A stretch of 6,999 nucleotides of DNA from Thermus kawarayensis JCM 12314 (lineage in GTDB: Bacteria > Deinococcota > Deinococci > Deinococcales > Thermaceae): contig BBBL01000077.1 in assembly GCA_001311545.1 (NCBI GenBank), forward strand, positions 1 through 6,999. Reading direction: 5' to 3'. Under the pieces are notes generated by a model. The model was not told the origin of the DNA, made no database searches, and worked only from the letters and a program-made list of their open reading frames with translations. Both the position numbers and the translations under genes were made by a program. Shown piece after piece: positions 1-6,999 of this stretch; position 1 is the stretch's first letter, and every line of letters starts with the position of its first letter.

Positions 1-190
1 CGTGGTCGTGGTTGCCCCGCACCGCTACCGCCCCGGTCCGCTTGAGCCAGGAGAGGACCCCCCGGGGGCTTGGCCCGTAGTTCACCGCATCCCCGGCGAA
101 GAGGACGGCGTCTACCCGCCCCGCCGCGGCCACGATGGCCCTCAGGGCCCAGACGTTCCCGTGAAGGTCGCTCAGGATCAGGACGCGCAT
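1..190 (-). CDS. Metallophosphoesterase (calcineurin-like), N-terminal 63 residues only
   Basis: The first 63 codons of a gene that runs off the low-coordinate edge. The visible residues carry the metal-binding motifs of the calcineurin-like phosphoesterase superfamily in order: SDLHGN (Asp8, His10), GD at 33-34 followed by AVNYGPSP, and GNHDH at 59-63. These residues bind a two-metal centre that hydrolyses phosphate mono- or diesters. The short spacing is like that of small YfcE-type bacterial enzymes, but the substrate cannot be told from this fragment. The ATG at 190 is preceded by GGAGG about 10 bases upstream, and the start overlaps the end of the preceding gene by 13 bases. It is therefore probably the last visible member of the operon that begins at the antiporter. 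No signal peptide is seen, so a cytoplasmic location is inferred. Confidence 0.9.
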   Translation of the reverse strand, partial: MRVLILSDLHGNVWALRAIVAAAGRVDAVLFAGDAVNYGPSPRGVLSWLKRTGAVAVRGNHDH

Positions 191-623
191 AGCCTTATCT
201 CCTCCTTCCCTTCCTCGTAGTCCCACAGGCCCAGCACCCCACCCCACTCCGCCAGGGCCCGGGCCGCCTTCTCCCCCTGGGGCCCGGGGGAAAGAGGGGC
301 AGGAGGTGGGGGAGGCGCAGGACCTCCTTCCCCTTTAGGGCCTCCAGCACCTCCACCCAGGGGAGGGCTTCCAGGAGCCCAAAGAGGGCTTCGGGAGGCC
401 GTGCGGGGTCTTCCAGCCAGGCCCGGCCTGCCGGGGTGAGCTCCAAGGAGAAGCCCCGCTGCCGCCAAAGACCCAGTTCCTCACCCAGGGCCAGGGCTTC
501 CAAGGGTTCGTCCACCGCTTGGCGGAGGGCGGGAAGGATCTCCGGCCAGCCAAGCCCCTCCCCCACCAAGACCAGGGCCTCGTAGAGGTCCTTGGGGCCC
601 ACCGGGATCAGCCTCGCCTCCAC
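178..623 (-). CDS. Small AAA-associated (ABC ATPase C-terminal-type) domain protein, with one frameshift
   Basis: Restored length is about 148 residues. It begins at GTG 623, with GGAGG five bases upstream, and overlaps the preceding gene by 16 bases. The protein has a winged-helix look: helices, then SLELTPAGRAWLED, then a helical segment, ending GEKAARALAEWGGVLGLWDYEEG. This pattern resembles the domain attached to the C-terminus of nitrate/sulfonate-type ABC ATPases (the AAA_assoc_C type), here without any ATPase. The assignment is from memory of that family and is moderate. The frame breaks near 279-290: the upstream frame runs on into low-complexity Arg-rich sequence, and the frame reached by stepping back one base gives the family-like C-terminus and stops at 178. 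A missing base in a C/G run is the simplest cause; a programmed -1 shift is the alternative. Its role is unknown. Confidence 0.6.
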
Positions 624-1018
624 GGCCACCTCCTTTCCTTGGGCTTGCCGGGCTTGGGCTTGCCCGCCGGGGGCGACCAGCGGGCCTCGAGGCCCAGGAG
701 AACCCGCCGGTACCGGTCCTGCACCTCCCTGAGGTCGCGGATCCACGCCTCCTCGGGGGCGCGGGGGAACCAGTAGGGGCAGGGGCAGAGGCGCCGCCAG
801 TCCTTGACCGCGGGCTCCCGGGCCCAAGAGAAGGTGAAGCGGCAGGCGAAGCGGGCTTCCCCCAGCACCCGGAGGGGGACCAGGTAGAGGCAGGCCTGCG
901 GGTGGGCCAGGGCCTCGGGAATAGGGCAGGCGCGGCACACCTCCGGGGTCACGGGCCGGTCTTCTTCGGCGCCGCAAAGCCCTTGGTGCCGGTAGGGGCA
1001 GGGAGGCCAGCCCTCCAT
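608..1018 (-). CDS. Cysteine-rich hypothetical protein (136 aa)
   Basis: I do not recognise a named family. The 136-residue protein starts at ATG 1018, seven bases after the UspA stop, with GAGG a few bases upstream. It has eight cysteines at 7, 15, 28, 31, 43, 59, 78 and 80, including CRAC and CPCPYWF. This is unusual for a cytoplasmic thermophile protein and suggests an iron-sulfur cluster or structural metal. After residue 85 there is a helical stretch with no cysteine (AWIRDLREVQDRYRRVLLGLEA) and then a Lys/Pro/Arg tail. There is no signal peptide or membrane segment. It overlaps the next gene by 16 bases, so the two are probably translationally coupled. Position in the antiporter-UspA operon suggests a stress-linked role, but function is not known. 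Confidence 0.8.
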   Translation of the reverse strand: MEGWPPCPYRHQGLCGAEEDRPVTPEVCRACPIPEALAHPQACLYLVPLRVLGEARFACRFTFSWAREPAVKDWRRLCPCPYWFPRAPEEAWIRDLREVQDRYRRVLLGLEARWSPPAGKPKPGKPKERRWPWRRG

Positions 1019-1025
1019 CCCGTCC

Positions 1026-1445
1026 TCAGTGGACCACCATGACCGCGCAGTGGGCATAGCGGAGCACCCGCTCCGAAACCGAGCCCAGCATCCAGCGCTG
1101 GACCGGGGTGAGGCCCCGCCGCCCCAGGACGATGAGCTCGTACCCCTCTTTCTCCGCCACCCGCACCAGGGTCTCCGCCGGATGGCCCACCCGGGTTTCC
1201 GCCCGGAAGGGCACGCCCCGGCGCTCCGCCTCCTGGTGGGCGTAGCGAAAGGCCTCCGCCAAGGGGCCTTTGGCCTCCTCCAACACCCCCTCCAGCTCGA
1301 GGCCCAGCTCGGCGAACTCGGGGGGCCGCACCACCGCCAAGGCCAGCACCTCGGCGCGGAAGGCCCGGGCCACCTCCAGGGCCGCCACCAGAGCCTTCCT
1401 CGCCGCCTCTGAGCCATCGTATCCTACAAGGATTCTACGGAACAT
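1026..1445 (-). CDS. UspA-family universal stress protein (139 aa)
   Basis: A complete single-domain Usp of normal length. It opens with FRRILVGYDGSEAA (conserved Asp9 at the end of strand 1) and carries the ATP-binding signature G-2x-G-9x-G-S near the C-terminus, visible as GRRG, nine residues, then GS. It ends in HCAVMVVH, the usual final strand. This places it with ATP-binding, MJ0577-like Usps, which act as cytoplasmic dimers in stress adaptation; the partner and exact output are not known. The ATG at 1445 has AAAGGAGG about eight bases upstream. It lies 42 bases after the antiporter stop with no terminator between them, so it is probably co-transcribed and under the upstream fluoride riboswitch. 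Usp genes are, as I recall, among those reported downstream of this riboswitch class. Confidence 0.95.
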   Translation of the reverse strand: MFRRILVGYDGSEAARKALVAALEVARAFRAEVLALAVVRPPEFAELGLELEGVLEEAKGPLAEAFRYAHQEAERRGVPFRAETRVGHPAETLVRVAEKEGYELIVLGRRGLTPVQRWMLGSVSERVLRYAHCAVMVVH

Positions 1446-1487
1446 CCCCCACTCCTCCTTTCTGCCCGGGCGAGCCAGATCGCCTTC

Positions 1488-2656
1488 TCAGTCACCGGAA
1501 ACCACCTCCCCCTTGGAGGCCCGGGCCTCCTCCAGGTGGTGGTGGGGAAGGAAGAAACGGTTGGCGAGCCAGGTGGGCACCACGGCGCTGGCGATCACGG
1601 TGGCCACCAGCAGGGAATACTGGTCCCGGTCTATGATGCCGTGGGTGAGGCCGTAGAGGCTGGAGATGGTACCGAAGGTGAGGCCGGTGGACATCATCAG
1701 GGTGGTGTAGGCGGCCTCGCGGCCCCGGTGGCCAAGGGCCAGGGTGGCGGGGTAGACGCCCAGGAGCTTGCTGGCCATCTTGGCGACGAAGAGCACCAGG
1801 AAGGCCCCCATCCCCGCCATCAGGCCGGGGAGGCTCACCAGGCTTCCCGCCCTGAGGAAGTAGAAGGGGGTGAGGAGGCCGAGGGTGAGGGTCCTCAGCC
1901 TCCGCAAAAGGCCGTGGTCCCGGCCCACGCTCCCCGCCAGGACCATGCCCACCAGATAGGCGGGGAGGACCGCCTCCGAGCCGCTCCACACGGCGAGGCC
2001 CCCAGGGCGAAGAGGGCGAGGAGGAGGAACTTGGCCTCCAGCTCGTAGGTGCCCCCGCCGAAGCGGCGGAAGAAGGCCGGGGTGGCCCGGGGCAGGAAAA
2101 GGAGGGCCAGGAGAAGCCCCAGGGCGAAGAGGAGGGTGCGCATGCCAAAGGGGGCGAAGAGAAGGCCCAGGGCGAGGACCGTGCCCAGGTCGTTCACGAA
2201 GCAGGCGGCCAGGATCACCTTGCCGAAGGGGGTTCTGTTGAGGCCGAGCTCCAGCATCACCGCGTAGACCACGGCCACGCTGGTGGTGGATAGGGCCACC
2301 CCGGCCAGCCAGCTCGCCCTCGGCGTCCAGCCCAGGAGGAGGTGGGCCAGCAGGGCGGCCCCCAGGAAGGGGGCGAGAAACCCCGCAAGGCCGATGCCCA
2401 GGGCCTCCTTCCAGCTCCGCTTTAGCGTCTCGGGGTCAAGCTCCGCCCCGGCCAGGAAGGTGAGGACCACGCTCCCCACGCCCGCCAGGAAAACTACCCA
2501 GGGGGCGCCCGTCTGCATCAGGTCCCTTCCCAGGACCGCTCCGGCGGCCACGCCCACCACGATCTCCGTCAGGGCCACGGAGAGGCGGAATGCCACGGAG
2601 AGCAAGGTGGCCAGCACCGCAAGCCCAAGCCATATGGCCGCAACACCCCAGTCCAT
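1488..2656 (-). CDS. CPA-superfamily cation/proton antiporter (NapA/KefB-like), with one frameshift
   Basis: Restored length is about 389 residues, the size of membrane-only NapA-type antiporters. Hydrophobic helices run throughout, starting near residue 5. Family signs include FLAGAELD near 67-74, the ALSTTSVAVVY segment near 121-131 (the unwound helix of the core domain), and FVNDLGTV with Asn155-Asp156. The Asn-Asp pair replaces the Asp-Asp of electrogenic antiporters, which in this superfamily usually goes with electroneutral exchange. There is no C-terminal TrkA_N or RCK domain. The ATG at 2656 has AAAGGAGG seven bases upstream. The frame breaks near 1996-2000: FALGA continues one frame over as AVWSGSEAVLPAYLVG, so one base is missing in a G/C run. 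A riboswitch and terminator precede it. It would exchange Na+ or K+ for H+ across the inner membrane. The ion is not readable from the sequence. Confidence 0.88.
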
Positions 2657-2683
2657 CGGGCTTCCTCCTTTCCGGGGTGAAGG

Positions 2684-2714
2684 AAAAGGCCCCCACCCCT
2701 TTTGGGTAGGAGCC
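2684..2714 (-). terminator. Intrinsic terminator hairpin of the antiporter leader (riboswitch expression platform)
   Basis: On the minus strand GGCTCCTACCC (2714-2704) pairs with GGGTGGGGGCC (2698-2688) around the loop AAAAG. This gives 11 base pairs with G-U pairs allowed, followed at once by TTTTCCTT. The first six bases of the 5' arm (2714-2709) are also the 3' strand of the riboswitch pseudoknot, so the two structures exclude each other. This is the layout expected when fluoride binding blocks termination and allows transcription. Confidence 0.8.
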
Positions 2715-2752
2715 ATCAGCCCACGGGGCGGTTTAGGCGGGCCCCATCGCCT
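2706..2752 (-). promoter_or_regulatory. Fluoride riboswitch (crcB motif) upstream of the antiporter operon
   Basis: The minus-strand RNA fits the fluoride aptamer. P1 pairs AGGCG (2752-2748) with CGCCU (2739-2735), closing a loop that contains AUGGGGCC. A short AAACC linker follows, then a GCCC/GGGC hairpin (2729-2719), the conserved UGAU, and the pseudoknot strand GGCUCC (2714-2709). GGCUCC pairs with GGGGCC in the P1 loop (2745-2740). The order and conserved bases match the Thermotoga petrophila fluoride aptamer as I remember it. It would sense F- and turn on the antiporter and downstream genes by preventing the terminator that overlaps its 3' end. Confidence 0.92.
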
Positions 2753-2759
2753 TAAAAAG

Positions 2760-2765
2760 AGGATA
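2760..2765 (-). promoter_or_regulatory. Possible -10 element for the antiporter riboswitch leader
   Basis: TATCCT on the minus strand lies eight bases before the first paired base of the aptamer, so transcription would start almost at the riboswitch 5' end. A convincing -35 box is not seen; the best candidates (CTTGGC or TTGGCT, about 15-16 bases upstream) are weak. Confidence 0.4.
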
Positions 2766-2786
2766 CCACGGCAAGCCTGAAGCCAA

Positions 2787-2802
2787 GGTGAAGCTCTTCA
2801 CC
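2787..2802 (-). repeat. Inverted repeat over the stop codon of the second MutS-like gene
   Basis: GGTGAAG and CTTCACC form a 7-base inverted repeat with a 2-base gap, spanning the TGA at 2800-2798. No clear U-run follows, so it is at best a weak terminator. It sits just before the promoter of the next transcription unit. Confidence 0.35.
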
Positions 2803-4257
2803 CTCCGAAGACCTGGCGCAACAGGTCCTCGCCGTAGGCCGTGGGCTCGGGGGGTGCGGACAGGAGGCGGAAGGTGCGGGTGCCGTCGGGAAGCCGCTCG
2901 GCCTTGAGGAAGAGCGCCCGTGTGTCCTCCAGGAAGGCCGCCACCAGGGTGTAGAAGTGGGTGACGAAGACCACCCGTACCCCCGCTTCCGTCAGGGCCC
3001 GCACCACCTGGCCCCCCAGCTCCGAGCCCTCGGGCTCGCTGGTGGCCGCGAAGCTCTCGTTGAAGAGGAAAAGGGGCCGCGCCGAAAGGTGGTCCACCAG
3101 GCCGCTGAGCCGCCGGAGTTCCTCCTCCAACTTCCCCGCCGAAAGCTCCCGGTCCTCCTCGCGCTTGAAATGGGTGAATATCCCATCCACGAGACCGCTC
3201 TCAAAGGCCTCCGCCCCCACGAAGAGCCCGGCCTGCATGAGGAGCTGGGCGAGGCCCAGGCTCCGCAGGAAGGTGGTCTTGCCCCCGCGGTTGGCCCCCG
3301 TGATGAAAACGGGGTTCTTGCCGTGGGCCTCGAGGTCGTTGCCCACGGCCCCCCCTTGCCGAAGGGCCAGCCCCACGTCGTAGAGGCCCTTGAAGGCCAG
3401 GTGGAGGCCCTCCCTGGGGGTGGGAAAGGCCAGGGGGAAGGCCCAGGGCCTTAAGCTCGAGGCCAGGCGAGAGGCCCCCAGGAGAAAGCCCGCCTCTGCC
3501 CGCAAGGCCTCAAAGAAGCGGGCCACCTCCTCCACCGCCGTGGCCAAGGCCTTGGCCGCGGCCCAGGCGCCCCGCTCCCGGATCTCCCCCAGGATCCTCG
3601 CCCCGGTCTCGTCCCGGGGGTGGAGGGTGAGGAGGTAGGTCCTGGGCCTGCGGGCGAAGGGCCAGGGGAACCTTCGGCTCGGGGGGAAGGAGGGTGTACC
3701 CCTCGCCCCGCCCCTCCGGGCCGAGGCCGGCGGCCATCCAGATGCCCTGGGGAAAGCGGAGGGCCTCGAGGTGCGCCTTGGCCTCCCGGAAGAAGTCGGG
3801 GGTGAGGACGGCGGAAAGCCGCGCCCGGAGGTCCAGGAAGGGGGCGTGGGCGAGGGGGGTGCGGGCGAGGAGGTCCAGAAGCTCCCGCAGGCCTTTGAGC
3901 AGGGCCTCCATCCCCTTGATGGCCCCGTAGAGGTCGGGCCGGTCCCTCCGGTAGAGGCCGTAGCCCTCCCGGCGCTTGGCCTCAGGGTCTCGTCGGCCAG
4001 ACGGTAGAGCCCCTCCGCAAGCCCGGGTTGCTCCAAGGTTCCCGCACCGCCTCCTGGCGGTGGAGGATAGCGGGGATGCCGGTGTGGAGGCCTTGGGCCA
4101 GGACCTTCCGCGCCACCTCCACGAGGTAGGCATCCCCCTCGCCCATGGTTTCCAGGAGCGTTCCCAGCCCCAGGTCGTGCTCCAGGTCCTCCCAGCCGAA
4201 GGGGAGGGGATGGTTTAGGTCCAGGTCGCGGTCGGGGTAGAGGAGGCCCACCCTCAT
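2798..4257 (-). CDS. MutS-like ATPase, second of a tandem pair, with three frameshifts
   Basis: Restored length is about 486 residues, against roughly 800 for true MutS. The C-terminal half has the MutS-type ABC ATPase. Walker A is GANRGGKTTF (about 321-330, Lys327), then IFTHFKREED and a KLEEEL helix, Walker B LFLFNES (Asn400, Glu401), and the H-loop FVTHF (His about 434). The N-terminal half is helical, like MutS core/lever domains, and I see no mismatch-reading FxE domain. Asn replaces the usual Walker B Asp, as I recall for this MutS-related subfamily. The ATG at 4257 overlaps the first MutS-like stop as ATGA. Frame breaks: near 4039-4043 (a base missing between AVREP and LEQPG), near 3985-3988 (a base missing before EAKRREGYG), and near 3659-3662 (an extra base between KVPLA and FARRPRTYLL). 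It probably partners the gene before it; substrate unknown. Confidence 0.85.
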
Positions 4258-5788
4258 GGCCTACCCCCGAGGCGCTCCTTGAGGAGCGGGTAGGTGAGGC
4301 CGTGCTTCGCCGCCAAGGCCAGGGCGTAGGCCTTGCCGTCCGCCGGCCTTTCCAGGATGCGGAAGGTCCGCCTAGAGGGGTCCTGGGGGTCCACCTCCGC
4401 CACCAGGCTGAGGGTGCCGGGTAGGCGGGCGAGCTCGTCCAAGAAGGTCACCAACACCGCCAGGCTTCCCTTGGCCCGGATCCTTTCCAGGAGGAAACGC
4501 CCTATGAGGCGGGCGTCCAGGAGGGCGGCCGAGGCCAAGGGCTCGTTGAGGAGGAGGAGGGAGTGCCCATCGGCCCGGTCCAGTAGGGCCTTGAGCCGGT
4601 GGAGGTCCTCCTCCAGCTTGCTCTTAAGCTCCTCTGGGTTTTCCCGCGCTTCGAAGTGGGTGAGGATGGCCCTGGGTAGGGAGAGCCGGGCCCGCCTGGC
4701 CGGCACCGGGAGGCCCAAGGCGGCCAGGTGGTGGAGTTGCCCCACCATCCGGGCAAAGGTGGTCTTGCCCCCCTGGTTGGGCCCGGTGACCACCAGGATC
4801 CTGGCCTCCTGGAAGCGGAAGCCGTTGCCCACGGGCCGCTTCCCCTCGGCGAGGAGCCTGGCGGCCAGAACCAGGTCGTAGGCCTCCTCGGCGAGGAAGG
4901 GCGGGGCCTCGGCCAGCTCGGGGTAGGCGAAGGGAAGGCCCACGGCCCGCAGGGGGGCCACGAAGTCCAGATAGGCCAGGAAGAAGCGGGCCTCCCGCTC
5001 CAGCCGGGCAAGGGTAGGGTCCGGGAAGTCCCGGTGTTCCCGGAAGAAGGCCTCGAGGCGGCGGAAGACCTCGGGGAAGAGGAGGGCGAGGTGGTCCAGG
5101 ATCCACTCCTCACGTGGTTGAGCCAGGGCCCGAGGGGCAGGGCCTCCTCCCGGAAGGAGGGGGGGCTTTTGCCGAAGAAGGGCCGGAAGGTGGCCTGGAC
5201 CCGCTCGCCGTAGTCCTCCTCGCCCCCGTAGGCCCTGAGGGCCAGGCGTCCCTCGTGCACGTGGAGGACGTAGCGGAGGTGGCGCAGGGCCGCTTGGAGG
5301 GCCTCGAGGTCCCTCCTAAGCCCCAGGAAGCCCGCTCCCTTCCGGTAGGATTCCAGGTAGTCCCGGTAGGCGCGCAGCCCCTCCGACCGCGGGGGATGGC
5401 GGGCGAGGCCTTCCGCCAAGGCCTCCACCCCCTCCAGATAGGCCGAGGCGGCCTGGAGGAAGTAGAGGCGGGCCTGCCAGGGGTGGCGGTCCTGAGCCGC
5501 CAGGTCCAGCCGCGCCCTCACCTCCTCCATGGCCCGGAAGTAGGGGCGGAAGGCCGCCGAGAGCCCCTTTCCCTCCAGGTCCCGGGCCACCTGTTGCCGG
5601 TGGAGGACCCCATCCCGCTCCCTCAGGGGGTTGCGGAAGACCGCCTCGAGGCCCATCCCCGGGTGGGCGGCGAAGACTTCCTTCTCCAGCTCGCCCAGCA
5701 AGAGGTCTTTGAAGTGGGCCGGAACCTCCTCCATGGGCTCCTGGATGGGGCCCAGCAGGCTTGGCGAAACCCCTTCCACCTTCTCCAT
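4254..5788 (-). CDS. MutS-like ATPase, first of a tandem pair, with one frameshift
   Basis: Restored length is about 511 residues. Residues 1-225 are mostly helical. The C-terminal ATPase has Walker A GPNQGGKTTF (about 336-345, Lys342), ILTHFEARENPEELKSKLEE, Walker B SLLLLNEP (Asn415, Glu416), and VTFLDEL where MutS has its H-loop, with Phe in place of His. The fold is MutS-type ABC ATPase without the mismatch-binding N-terminal domain, so a mismatch-repair label would overstate it. The ATG at 5788 has GGAGG directly after the leader terminator U-run. The frame breaks near 5109-5112: one missing base turns PWLNHVEEWILDHL into PWLNHVRSGSW. The stop overlaps the next MutS-like start as ATGA. 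The leader carries a fluoride riboswitch, so induction by fluoride is inferred. It acts in the cytoplasm, presumably on nucleic acid. Confidence 0.88.
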
Positions 5789-5797
5789 GGCTCCTCC

Positions 5798-5834
5798 AAA
5801 AGGAAGACTCCTACCGGCTTCACCGGTAGGAGTC
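5798..5834 (-). terminator. Intrinsic terminator hairpin of the MutS-like leader (riboswitch expression platform)
   Basis: A perfect 12-bp inverted repeat: GACTCCTACCGG (5834-5823 on the minus strand) and CCGGTAGGAGTC (5817-5806) around the loop TGAAG, followed by TTCCTTTT. The Shine-Dalgarno site starts right after the U-run. The first six bases of the 5' arm (5834-5829) are the 3' strand of the aptamer pseudoknot, so ligand binding and termination are mutually exclusive. Confidence 0.88.
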
Positions 5835-5874
5835 ATCAGCCCCAGCGGGCGGTTCAGGCGGACTCCATCGCCCT
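5826..5874 (-). promoter_or_regulatory. Fluoride riboswitch (crcB motif) upstream of the MutS-like pair
   Basis: The minus-strand RNA folds as a fluoride aptamer. P1 pairs GGGCG (5873-5869) with CGCCU (5860-5856). Its loop AUGGAGUCC supplies GGAGUC (5866-5861) for a pseudoknot with GACUCC (5834-5829). Between them lie GAACC, a GCCC/GGGC hairpin (5850-5839) and UGAU. It shares its core with the copy near 2706-2752, while the pseudoknot bases differ and compensate each other (GGAGUC/GACUCC here, GGGGCC/GGCUCC there). That covariation strongly supports the fold. Expected logic: F- present gives readthrough into the MutS-like genes. Confidence 0.93.
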
Positions 5875-5880
5875 ACACCC

Positions 5881-5909
5881 AGTCTAGCAAAGGGAGCCTC
5901 CCCCGTCTA
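5881..5909 (-). promoter_or_regulatory. Promoter for the MutS-like transcription unit
   Basis: On the minus strand TAGACG (5909-5904) and TAGACT (5886-5881) are separated by exactly 17 bases, each matching four of six positions of the -35 and -10 consensus. Transcription would start about 7 bases later, at the riboswitch 5' end. The elements lie inside the last codons of the upstream exported-protein gene. Confidence 0.6.
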
Positions 5910-6315
5910 GGCTTCTTGGGGGCCGACGCGGAGCCACCTTGACCGGCACCAGGCTTCCATCCTTGCCCAGGGCCACGTGCCGGTTCTTGAGGAGGGTGCC
6001 CAGGGTGTAGTCCTTCTTGCCCACCTTGACCACGAGTTCCTCCAAGGCGGTGGCCTTCTGCACCACCGGGTAGCGGTAGCTGGCCTTGGGGAGCTTGAAG
6101 ACCACGTAGACCGCCTTGTCCAGCGCTTCCGGCCCGGGAAGGGTGCCCTTGCCCCCTTCCCAAAGGGCCATCCCATGGGCGTCCTCCAGGACCAGCACCG
6201 TCCCCGCCGGGAGCACCCTGGGCGGGAAGACCAAGCTCACGTGGATCCTCCCCTGGGTGGCCGGGGCGGCCAGGGCCATCGCCGATGCCATGAGAAGCCA
6301 GACCATCCTCTTCAT
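5884..6315 (-). CDS. Small exported hypothetical protein (143 aa)
   Basis: I do not recognise a named family. The protein starts MKRMVWLLMASAMALAAPATQG, a typical short signal peptide with a likely cleavage after AAPA or ATQG and no lipobox cysteine. It is therefore probably periplasmic or secreted. The mature part (about 120 residues) looks like a beta-rich domain: RIHVSLVFPP, GTVLVLEDAHGMALWEGG, AVYVVFKLPKASYRYPVV, LVPVKVAP. The ATG at 6315 has GGAGG seven bases upstream and overlaps the histidine kinase stop as ATGA, so the two genes are coupled. The last residues (SLDGGGSLC) are poor in protein-like signal and overlap the next promoter. Given the indels elsewhere, the true C-terminus may be at PRRPQEA, ending at 5907 if a C run near 5915-5920 is one base too long. 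Confidence 0.75.
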   Translation of the reverse strand: MKRMVWLLMASAMALAAPATQGRIHVSLVFPPRVLPAGTVLVLEDAHGMALWEGGKGTLPGPEALDKAVYVVFKLPKASYRYPVVQKATALEELVVKVGKKDYTLGTLLKNRHVALGKDGSLVPVKVAPRRPPRSLDGGGSLC

Positions 6316-6999
6316 CTCTCACCTCCGGAGCTTCCCGCTCCGGAAGGAAGCCTAGGCCCTTTCCCTGAAGCGGGCCTGAAGAGGAGGCGGGCGCGGAAGG
6401 GGGGGCCTGGGAGGAGAAGGAGGGTCCCGCCCAGGGCCTCCGCCACCTGGCGGACCACCCGGAGACCTAGACCTTCCTGCGCCGAGGCCCTGGGCCCCGG
6501 GCCCTGGTCCTCCACCTCCAGGTACACCCCTTCCTCTTCCCGGCCCACCCGGAGGCGGATGGACCCCTGGCCGTGGAGGAGGGCGTTTTGCACCAGGTTG
6601 TTCAGGGCCCGCTCCAAGAGCCTGGGGTCGGCCCGCACCCGCGTGGGCTCCCCCTCCAGGCCGATCTCCCTGCCCCGGGCCACGGCCAGGGGTTGGAAGC
6701 GGTCAAAGGCCTCGGAGAGAAGGGCGTAGAGGTCCACCTCGGCGGGCCTCAGGTCCTGGGCCCCGGCGCGGGAGAGGGCGAGGAGGTTTTCCGCCAGGGC
6801 CTCGAGGCGCTCGGCCTGGGCCTTGAGCCGCCTCAGGGCCTCCCGGTCCACCCGCTCCTGGGCCAAGAGGCTTTCCAGCCCCACGCGGAAGGCCGCCACC
6901 GGGGTTTTGAGCTCGTGGCTGGCCAAGGCCAAAAAGGCCTGCTCCCGGGCCCGCTCCTCCTTGAGGGTGGACAGGAGGCGGGGCGAAGGCCTGGGCCAG
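6312..6999 (-). CDS. Sensor histidine kinase, C-terminal part (about 229 aa visible)
   Basis: The gene enters from the high-coordinate edge. The visible part has, in order, a helical linker (TLKEERAREQAFLALA), the dimerisation and phosphoacceptor H-box SHELKTP, an N-box NNLVQNALLHG, the G1 box DQGPGP and a G2 box GLGLRVV. Together these are a complete HisKA plus HATPase core. The phosphorylatable His is in SHELKTP (around 6908-6928). The sensor and membrane part, and any response-regulator gene, would lie outside the window. After the ATPase core a low-complexity tail (ASGKGPRLPSGAGSSGGER) is encoded over an inverted repeat, and the stop overlaps the exported-protein start as ATGA. The stimulus cannot be read here. 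It is upstream of the first riboswitch and so need not be fluoride-controlled. Confidence 0.95.
   Translation of the reverse strand, partial: WPRPSPRLLSTLKEERAREQAFLALASHELKTPVAAFRVGLESLLAQERVDREALRRLKAQAERLEALAENLLALSRAGAQDLRPAEVDLYALLSEAFDRFQPLAVARGREIGLEGEPTRVRADPRLLERALNNLVQNALLHGQGSIRLRVGREEEGVYLEVEDQGPGPRASAQEGLGLRVVRQVAEALGGTLLLLPGPPFRARLLFRPASGKGPRLPSGAGSSGGER
6324..6344 (-). repeat. 7-bp inverted repeat touching the exported-protein ribosome site
   Basis: TCCGGAG and CTCCGGA form a 7-base stem with a 7-base loop in the tail of the kinase gene. The 3' arm on the minus strand runs into GGAGG of the Shine-Dalgarno site for the gene starting at 6315. Translation of the kinase would open the stem, which would fit the ATGA coupling. 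No U-run follows. Confidence 0.45.

Follow-up and report, generated by a model that had tools for sequence, protein, structure and literature searches.

A fluoride riboswitch ahead of a pair of MutS-like ATPase genes in Thermus kawarayensis and related loci

The riboswitch and the gene pair behind it

The DNA analysed here was a stretch of 6,999 nt from Thermus kawarayensis JCM 12314 (contig BBBL01000077.1, positions 1 to 6,999; hereafter the window), in which a fluoride riboswitch was followed on the minus strand by two genes for MutS-like ATPases. The first gene (working name fluA, 4254-5788, minus strand) and the second one (fluB, 2798-4257, minus strand) overlapped, the stop of fluA and the start of fluB sharing an ATGA. 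A reading of the letters alone (the sequence-only reading) had placed a fluoride riboswitch in command of a tandem MutS-like pair. The two overlapping MutS-like genes were indeed there, but both were frameshifted in the window, fluA near 5106 and fluB near 4000 and 3660. Intact relatives were available for the first protein (P0001, 511 aa, 99% identical) and for the second (P0121, 488 aa, 93% identical). Since such close relatives were intact, the frameshifts are likely to be sequence errors or a local defect. A pseudogene was considered as well, but four frameshifts in conserved genes of the pair and the antiporter, at about 5106, 4000, 3660 and 1990, fell inside 4 kb, which suggests sequence errors, the probable case, or a local strain.

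A covariance scan of the whole window against Rfam yielded two aptamers of the fluoride (crcB) family RF01734, whose gathering score is 34 bits. The first copy (5820-5881, minus strand) was a significant, full-length match with 59.9 bits and an E-value of 4.6e-15. The second copy (2700-2760, minus strand; 56.0 bits, E 8.3e-14) was absent from the finding of the sequence-only reading. The remaining two Rfam matches in the window (E up to 1) were far under their gathering scores. The claim of an aptamer with its paired elements held as well, P1, P3 and the pseudoknot all being present. These elements were followed in an alignment of 32 riboswitch copies, two of them from the window, where P1 was paired in 99.2%, P3 in 68% only, and the pseudoknot (loop GGAGU with ACUCC) in 98.1% of the cells, with both-side changes in four of its five pairs. 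P1, P3 and the pseudoknot each showed both-side changes, and the number of such cells was 52 in comparison to 15.1 in shuffles. Judging from the sequence, it is near certain that the fluoride riboswitch at 5881-5820 is real.

Downstream of the aptamer was a terminator-like hairpin (5806-5834, minus strand) followed by a TTCCTTTT tail. Its stem (5834-5823 with 5817-5806) consisted of 12 perfect pairs, or 13 by scan and fold, and its 5' arm GACTCCTACCGG included ACTCC, the partner of the aptamer's GGAGT, as had been described from the letters. Because the ACUCC strand is used by both, the pseudoknot and the terminator are mutually exclusive by sequence, and the hairpin can be considered as an expression platform that excludes the aptamer. 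One terminator was found in 5700-6100 versus 0.4 (standard deviation 0.6) in shuffles, so that the terminator count alone was weak evidence. On the other hand, the folding of the 96-nt first leader beat 200 of 200 shuffles (z -3.8). The second riboswitch also had a terminator-like hairpin (2688-2714, minus strand, from sequence and leader fold) followed by TTTTCCTT. The design of this second leader was as in the first, yet its whole fold was unexceptional (z -1.3; 22 of 200 shuffles folded as well). Among 57 leaders, a T-tailed terminator over the pseudoknot strand was present in 22 (20 from 55 related loci plus both window leaders), compared with 0.5% of 1140 shuffled leaders.

Just 5' of the aptamer we found the -10-like hexamer TAGACT (5881-5886, minus strand), a candidate promoter element that aligned with TATACT (four cases) or TAAACT (one case) in five other aptamer-bearing leaders of the Thermus type. 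Since this hexamer shares bases with the stop codon of the gene before it, cotranscription from upstream is possible. A ribosome-binding site GGAGGAG (5791-5797, minus strand) preceded the ATG at 5788, and the MutS-like nature of the gene behind it, proposed in the sequence-only reading, was borne out by matches to PF00488 on the intact relatives.

Linkage and families of the paired genes

The linkage between the riboswitch and the pair was examined in 80 loci, the best 80 of at least 538 confirmed stretches that encoded a relative in a scan of genome contigs. According to the record titles, they spanned Thermus, Meiothermus, Chloroflexi, Actinobacteria, Acidobacteria, Bacillota, Proteobacteria, Spirochaetes, Thermotogae and others. 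The two genes were adjacent or overlapping in 76 of the 80 loci. In 55 loci, a riboswitch on the same strand preceded the tblastn match to the first gene by no more than 600 nt, and 70 loci had one anywhere in their DNA. The scan model was built from the 32 riboswitches and 16 of the 80 loci supplied sequences to it, so this linkage test was partly circular; a direct-upstream riboswitch was found in 14 of these 16 training loci and in 41 of the 64 non-training loci. Most of the directly upstream riboswitches (48 of 55) scored at least 30 bits. Moreover, Rfam's own model at its gathering score detected a riboswitch in 17 of the 22 loci of this set that were scanned with it. Six of the 80 loci came from archaeal metagenome-assembled genomes, and in two of them (L059 and L064) the riboswitch was directly upstream. 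Altogether, the 80 loci contained 154 riboswitch matches, for which the next gene was the pair in 50 cases and a singleton open reading frame (ORF) in 33, while no ORF was within reach in 24.

The same association was seen in surveys of two phyla, for which the centre genomes had been picked for holding the pair and the others independently of the riboswitch. The first gene was called at an E-value up to 1e-30 in the phylum of Thermus tenuipuniceus and up to 1e-40 in the phylum of Streptantibioticus, and the second gene at 1e-30. Among 111 genomes from the phylum of Thermus tenuipuniceus, 19 had a riboswitch over the cut-off and 27 the first gene; 15 had both, four the riboswitch alone, 12 the first gene alone and 80 neither (Fisher p 3e-8; 1e-7 without the centre genome; 3e-7 without G043). 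All 15 co-occurrences were on one contig and within 10 kb. Several of the 27 first-gene matches were fragments, and the match in G043 was ambiguous, fitting the second protein better. The second gene was present in 26 of the 111 genomes, and G015 and G054 had it without the first. Among 198 genomes from the phylum of Streptantibioticus, the riboswitch occurred in 37 and the first gene in 10; eight had both, 29 the riboswitch alone, two the first gene alone and 159 neither (Fisher p 2.6e-5; 1.1e-4 without the centre genome). Here all eight co-occurrences were on one contig and within 6 kb. Additionally, locus L135 from genome G077 possessed the first gene with its own riboswitch, and no second gene was found there at 1e-30.

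Both proteins matched PF00488 (MutS_V), with 48.6 bits for P0001 and 57.5 bits for P0121 at a gathering score of 30.2. They stayed under the NCBIfam cut-offs of mutS1 (TIGR01070; 46.8 and 51.4 bits versus 641.7), mutS2 (TIGR01069; 43 and 58.6 bits versus 400) and KamC (NF052383; 42.3 and 65.1 bits versus 300). In the tree the pair formed two sister families, separate from MutS, MutS2 and KamC. Their Walker B motif was Asn-Glu instead of Asp-Glu in all aligned rows (56 of 56 and 52 of 52), compared with Asp-Glu in 16 rows of MutS, MutS2 and KamC, and the first protein had lost the His of the H-loop. The structure models matched the core, lever and ATPase of MutS only: the second model aligned to mismatch-bound E. 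coli MutS (3zlj) from about residue 260 and the first from about 170, and a few alignment rows began earlier (e.g., 7ai7 near 82). Pfam did not report the N-terminal mismatch domain in P0001 or P0121, although it likewise missed core domains shown by the fold, and most structure alignments started beyond that domain. Thus, according to these models, the proteins are MutS-family ATP-binding cassette (ABC) ATPases reduced to the core/lever and the ATPase domain.

Known relatives resembled the pair in part. MutS and the eukaryotic MSH2-MSH6 and MSH2-MSH3 have the same type of ABC ATPase, and the eukaryotic forms are heterodimers; in contrast to them, the pair seems to be missing the mismatch domain, and its first protein lacks the H-loop His. 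MutS2 shares the core/lever and the ATPase and has a like size. However, the pair was without the SMR part by Pfam, differed from MutS2 in Walker B and other motifs, and was separate from it in the tree. KamC, a lysine 5,6-aminomutase reactivase ATPase whose reactivase function we took from the NCBIfam name NF052383 alone, is a MutS-family ATPase of similar length and a named enzyme reactivase. Unlike the pair, it was preceded by another P-loop-like protein rather than by a second MutS (four KamC loci), kept Asp-Glu in Walker B, and grouped with MutS2-like rows in the tree. KamC was considered as the closest relative and rejected: its profile was matched better by frames of MutS or MutS2 length (156-259 bits) than by the pair (42 and 65 bits), the tree joined it to the MutS2-like rows, and its upstream gene was a different one.

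Neighbouring genes and fluoride islands

The second riboswitch of the window (2760-2700) headed a run of further genes on the minus strand. Namely, these were a cation:proton antiporter (Na_H_Exchanger, 1488-2656) with a frameshift near 1990 and both pieces matching PF00999, a universal stress protein (UspA, 1026-1445; PF00582, E 7e-35), and a calcineurin-like phosphoesterase of which the window end left the gene start (2-190; PF00149 on ORF 2-247). The order around the phosphoesterase gene was similar in relatives. Between UspA and the phosphoesterase was a cysteine-rich small protein (608-1019), which tblastn also found in the Thermus-type relatives L136 and L138; the longer ORF containing it had no Pfam match. 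Upstream of the pair, on the same strand, were a small protein with no Pfam match (5884-6315) and a histidine kinase (6312-6998). Four relatives of the Thermus type (L004, L136, L137 and L139) have kept these two genes next to the pair.

In L004, L136 and L137, a histidine kinase was followed by the small protein, the riboswitch and the pair, and L139 had the same order without the riboswitch. A second riboswitch preceded the antiporter, UspA, phosphoesterase, DUF190 and MFS genes in L134, L136 and L004, and L134 had both switches positioned as in the window. The Meiothermus locus (L007) had a single riboswitch at the head of antiporter, UspA, DUF190, phosphoesterase, MFS and the pair, all in one direction. 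On Citrobacter and Klebsiella plasmids, the riboswitch, antiporter, UspA and the pair were in a run that adjoined a P-type ATPase, crcB, gpm, eno, UspA, a phosphatase and CLC. The Enterobacter cloacae FRM operon (ppaC-uspA-eno-gpmA-crcB-orf5249; PMC5533749) is a resistance cluster driven by a fluoride switch, and its crcB, gpm, eno and uspA types of genes are the ones that likewise adjoin the pair on these plasmids. The available text on that operon (PMC5533749) had no occurrence of "MutS", "mismatch" or "DNA repair". The first protein had relatives on 47 plasmid records, of which 21 were typed conjugative; Klebsiella accounted for 18 of the 47, Citrobacter for 6 and Enterobacter for 5. A phage origin was also considered from MT837116.1 (L142), a record filed as phage that contained a distant pair with 27.7% identity and no fluoride riboswitch found; this unannotated record was marked UNVERIFIED and was not used.

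Neighbour ORFs in the 80 loci were called mechanically, and Pfam was run on a single representative per cluster for the 28 other clusters that occurred in at least three loci, with 562 singleton ORFs outside the scan. The recurrent neighbours were a dynamin-like GTPase (21 of 80 loci), MFS (19), enolase (18), DUF190 (8), pyrophosphatase (7), antiporter (7), phosphoesterase (7), CrcB (6) and UspA (5). For 6 of the 26 members of its cluster (L031 5033-6802, L035 3021-4700, L047 4341-6125, L068 11478-12486, L072 3162-4916 and L076 5977-6735), the dynamin-like GTPase gene came directly after a fluoride riboswitch, and the open-licence literature searched contained no co-mention of "fluoride riboswitch" and "dynamin". 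A complex-I-like membrane subunit (NADHdh) was behind fluoride riboswitches in all seven members of its cluster (L015, L019, L024, L043, L050, L052 and L060), with further complex-I or hydrogenase-like subunits close to it.

Proposed function and rival explanations

The sequence-only reading had placed MutS-like genes in lists of fluoride-riboswitch genes, and this was correct: mutS was already named downstream of the crcB/fluoride riboswitch by Weinberg in 2010 (PMC2864571). The association of the riboswitch with mutS is therefore not new. According to the available text of that paper, the RNA family, the terminators overlapping the motif and the downstream mutS were the same as here, and activation by the ligand was predicted; mutS was listed under DNA repair, and the text described no tandem pair, families or islands. 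The wording "DNA repair proteins" was repeated in the available part of PMC7266159. The main text of a 2024 review on fluoride resistance (PMC11139923), as far as available, had no occurrence of MutS, mismatch or DNA repair. Within the available parts of the open-licence literature searched, the function of the pair was described nowhere; where fluoride, crcB and mutS occurred together, mutS was named as plasmid backbone only. The present analysis adds a description of both sister families with their motifs and islands.

The pair belongs to the fluoride-defence gene set. By analogy with the known mechanism of RF01734, binding of fluoride would hold the pseudoknot, the terminator would fail to form and both genes would be transcribed. 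Because of the gene pairing and the descent from sister families, the two proteins would most likely form a heterodimer, possibly an ATP-driven clamp or remodeller that grips and resets a fluoride-blocked target. Riboswitch control of the MutS-like pair, as proposed in the sequence-only reading, had strong support from the sequence, from covariation and from the conserved linkage, and the interpretation of that reading as a whole was supported in part. Taken jointly, a fluoride switch with a fluoride-dedicated heterodimer behind it appears probable to us from the sequence evidence. As to the job of such a clamp, we tentatively put resetting of a fluoride-blocked target before mismatch repair, with a metalloenzyme (enolase or pyrophosphatase) as the leading candidate; this is a possibility that we hold with some reserve. 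Enzyme reactivation was favoured since the recurrent partners included enzymes that fluoride inhibits, or spare copies of them (enolase in 18 and pyrophosphatase in 7 of 80 loci), and since KamC, which is related to MutS, is named as an enzyme reactivase (NF052383). Enolase and pyrophosphatase are given as such enzymes or spares in the available text of PMC5533749 and PMC11139923.

A number of observations weigh against this interpretation. Ten of the 80 loci had no riboswitch, and 7 of the 55 direct riboswitches were under 30 bits. A terminator by the rule used was lacking in 35 of the 57 leaders. The promoter claimed in the sequence-only reading was not confirmed, a scan of 5700-6100 finding no sigma-70 consensus, with TAGACT as a -10-like candidate. 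Within the phylum of Thermus tenuipuniceus, 12 of the 27 first-gene genomes had no riboswitch over the cut-off under strict search filters, and a second look at 30 first-gene loci with the 32-riboswitch model found one in nine loci and none in these 12 genomes. For three of the 27 (G057, G073 and G077), the search at 1e-30 gave no second gene. All that G074 carried was a decayed leader. The window's own pair had three frameshifts, and the only riboswitch found on a Rhodococcus plasmid adjoined crcB, not the pair. The closeness of KamC to the pair was unspecific by profile bits and tree, so that KamC serves as a precedent only, and the neighbours in fluoride islands may merely share the stress. 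As a separate observation, the G074 leader (L139 11060-11260, minus strand, Thermus type) had an unrecognisable aptamer but kept pseudoknot-like and terminator-like strands, as in a decayed or altered switch.

Several other explanations were compared with enzyme reactivation. The sequence-only reading and the 2010 authors thought of nucleic-acid stress, in which the pair would be a clamp handling DNA or RNA after fluoride-caused damage or misincorporation. This appears unlikely, given that the alignments to MutS begin late, both proteins seem too short to hold a mismatch domain in addition to the core, and no DNA-repair family was found by Pfam among the 28 recurrent neighbour clusters, a scan that left the 562 singleton ORFs outside. 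The charge of the non-ATPase part pointed weakly in the same direction, with -3.5 per 100 aa in the first protein and about 0 in the second, compared with -1.2 in six long MutS/MutS2 rows. From their length and motifs, we take these rows to be four MutS and two MutS2. Another candidate is rescue of translation, where the pair would act like MutS2 in splitting or freeing ribosomes, or translation GTPases, that fluoride or metal-fluoride nucleotide complexes have frozen. MutS2 is brought to collisions by its SMR and KOW domains, according to the literature excerpts available, and Pfam found neither domain in P0001 or P0121, which makes this role improbable.

It is also conceivable that the pair is a passenger that rides in fluoride islands or switch operons without its own fluoride role, since the association is by location only and 25 of the 80 loci were without a switch within 600 nt upstream. 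However, the pair frequently came first after a switch of its own (55 of 80 loci), over many phyla, and it stayed behind a fluoride switch though the operon order differed between Thermus and Meiothermus, so that we regard mere passage as very unlikely. Finally, the leader might be a variant aptamer with a different ligand at this locus, as the strongly altered leader of one relative (G074) could suggest. The window copies scored 59.9 and 56.0 bits, and the second copy precedes an antiporter, a gene class listed for fluoride riboswitches in the available text of the 2024 review (PMC11139923); a different ligand is thus hardly credible.

The most specific form of the enzyme-reactivation proposal describes the pair as an anti-fluoride repair machine. 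Namely, a heterodimeric MutS-type ATPase would strip Mg-fluoride or Mg-fluoride-phosphate dead-end complexes from metalloenzymes such as enolase and pyrophosphatase, and its own ATP sites would be spared from metal-fluoride trapping by the Asp-to-Asn change in the Mg-binding Walker B motif, which all aligned rows of both subunits had. In all its details this is a speculative proposal that we consider improbable. With the present findings, a puzzling entry in a list of genes becomes a testable system of two families, probably a heterodimer, whose active-site motifs are unusual and invariant and which occurs on plasmids and in the fluoride islands of many phyla. If the repair machine were real, it would add to export and to the overproduction of enzymes a third way of defence against fluoride, common to bacteria and archaea.
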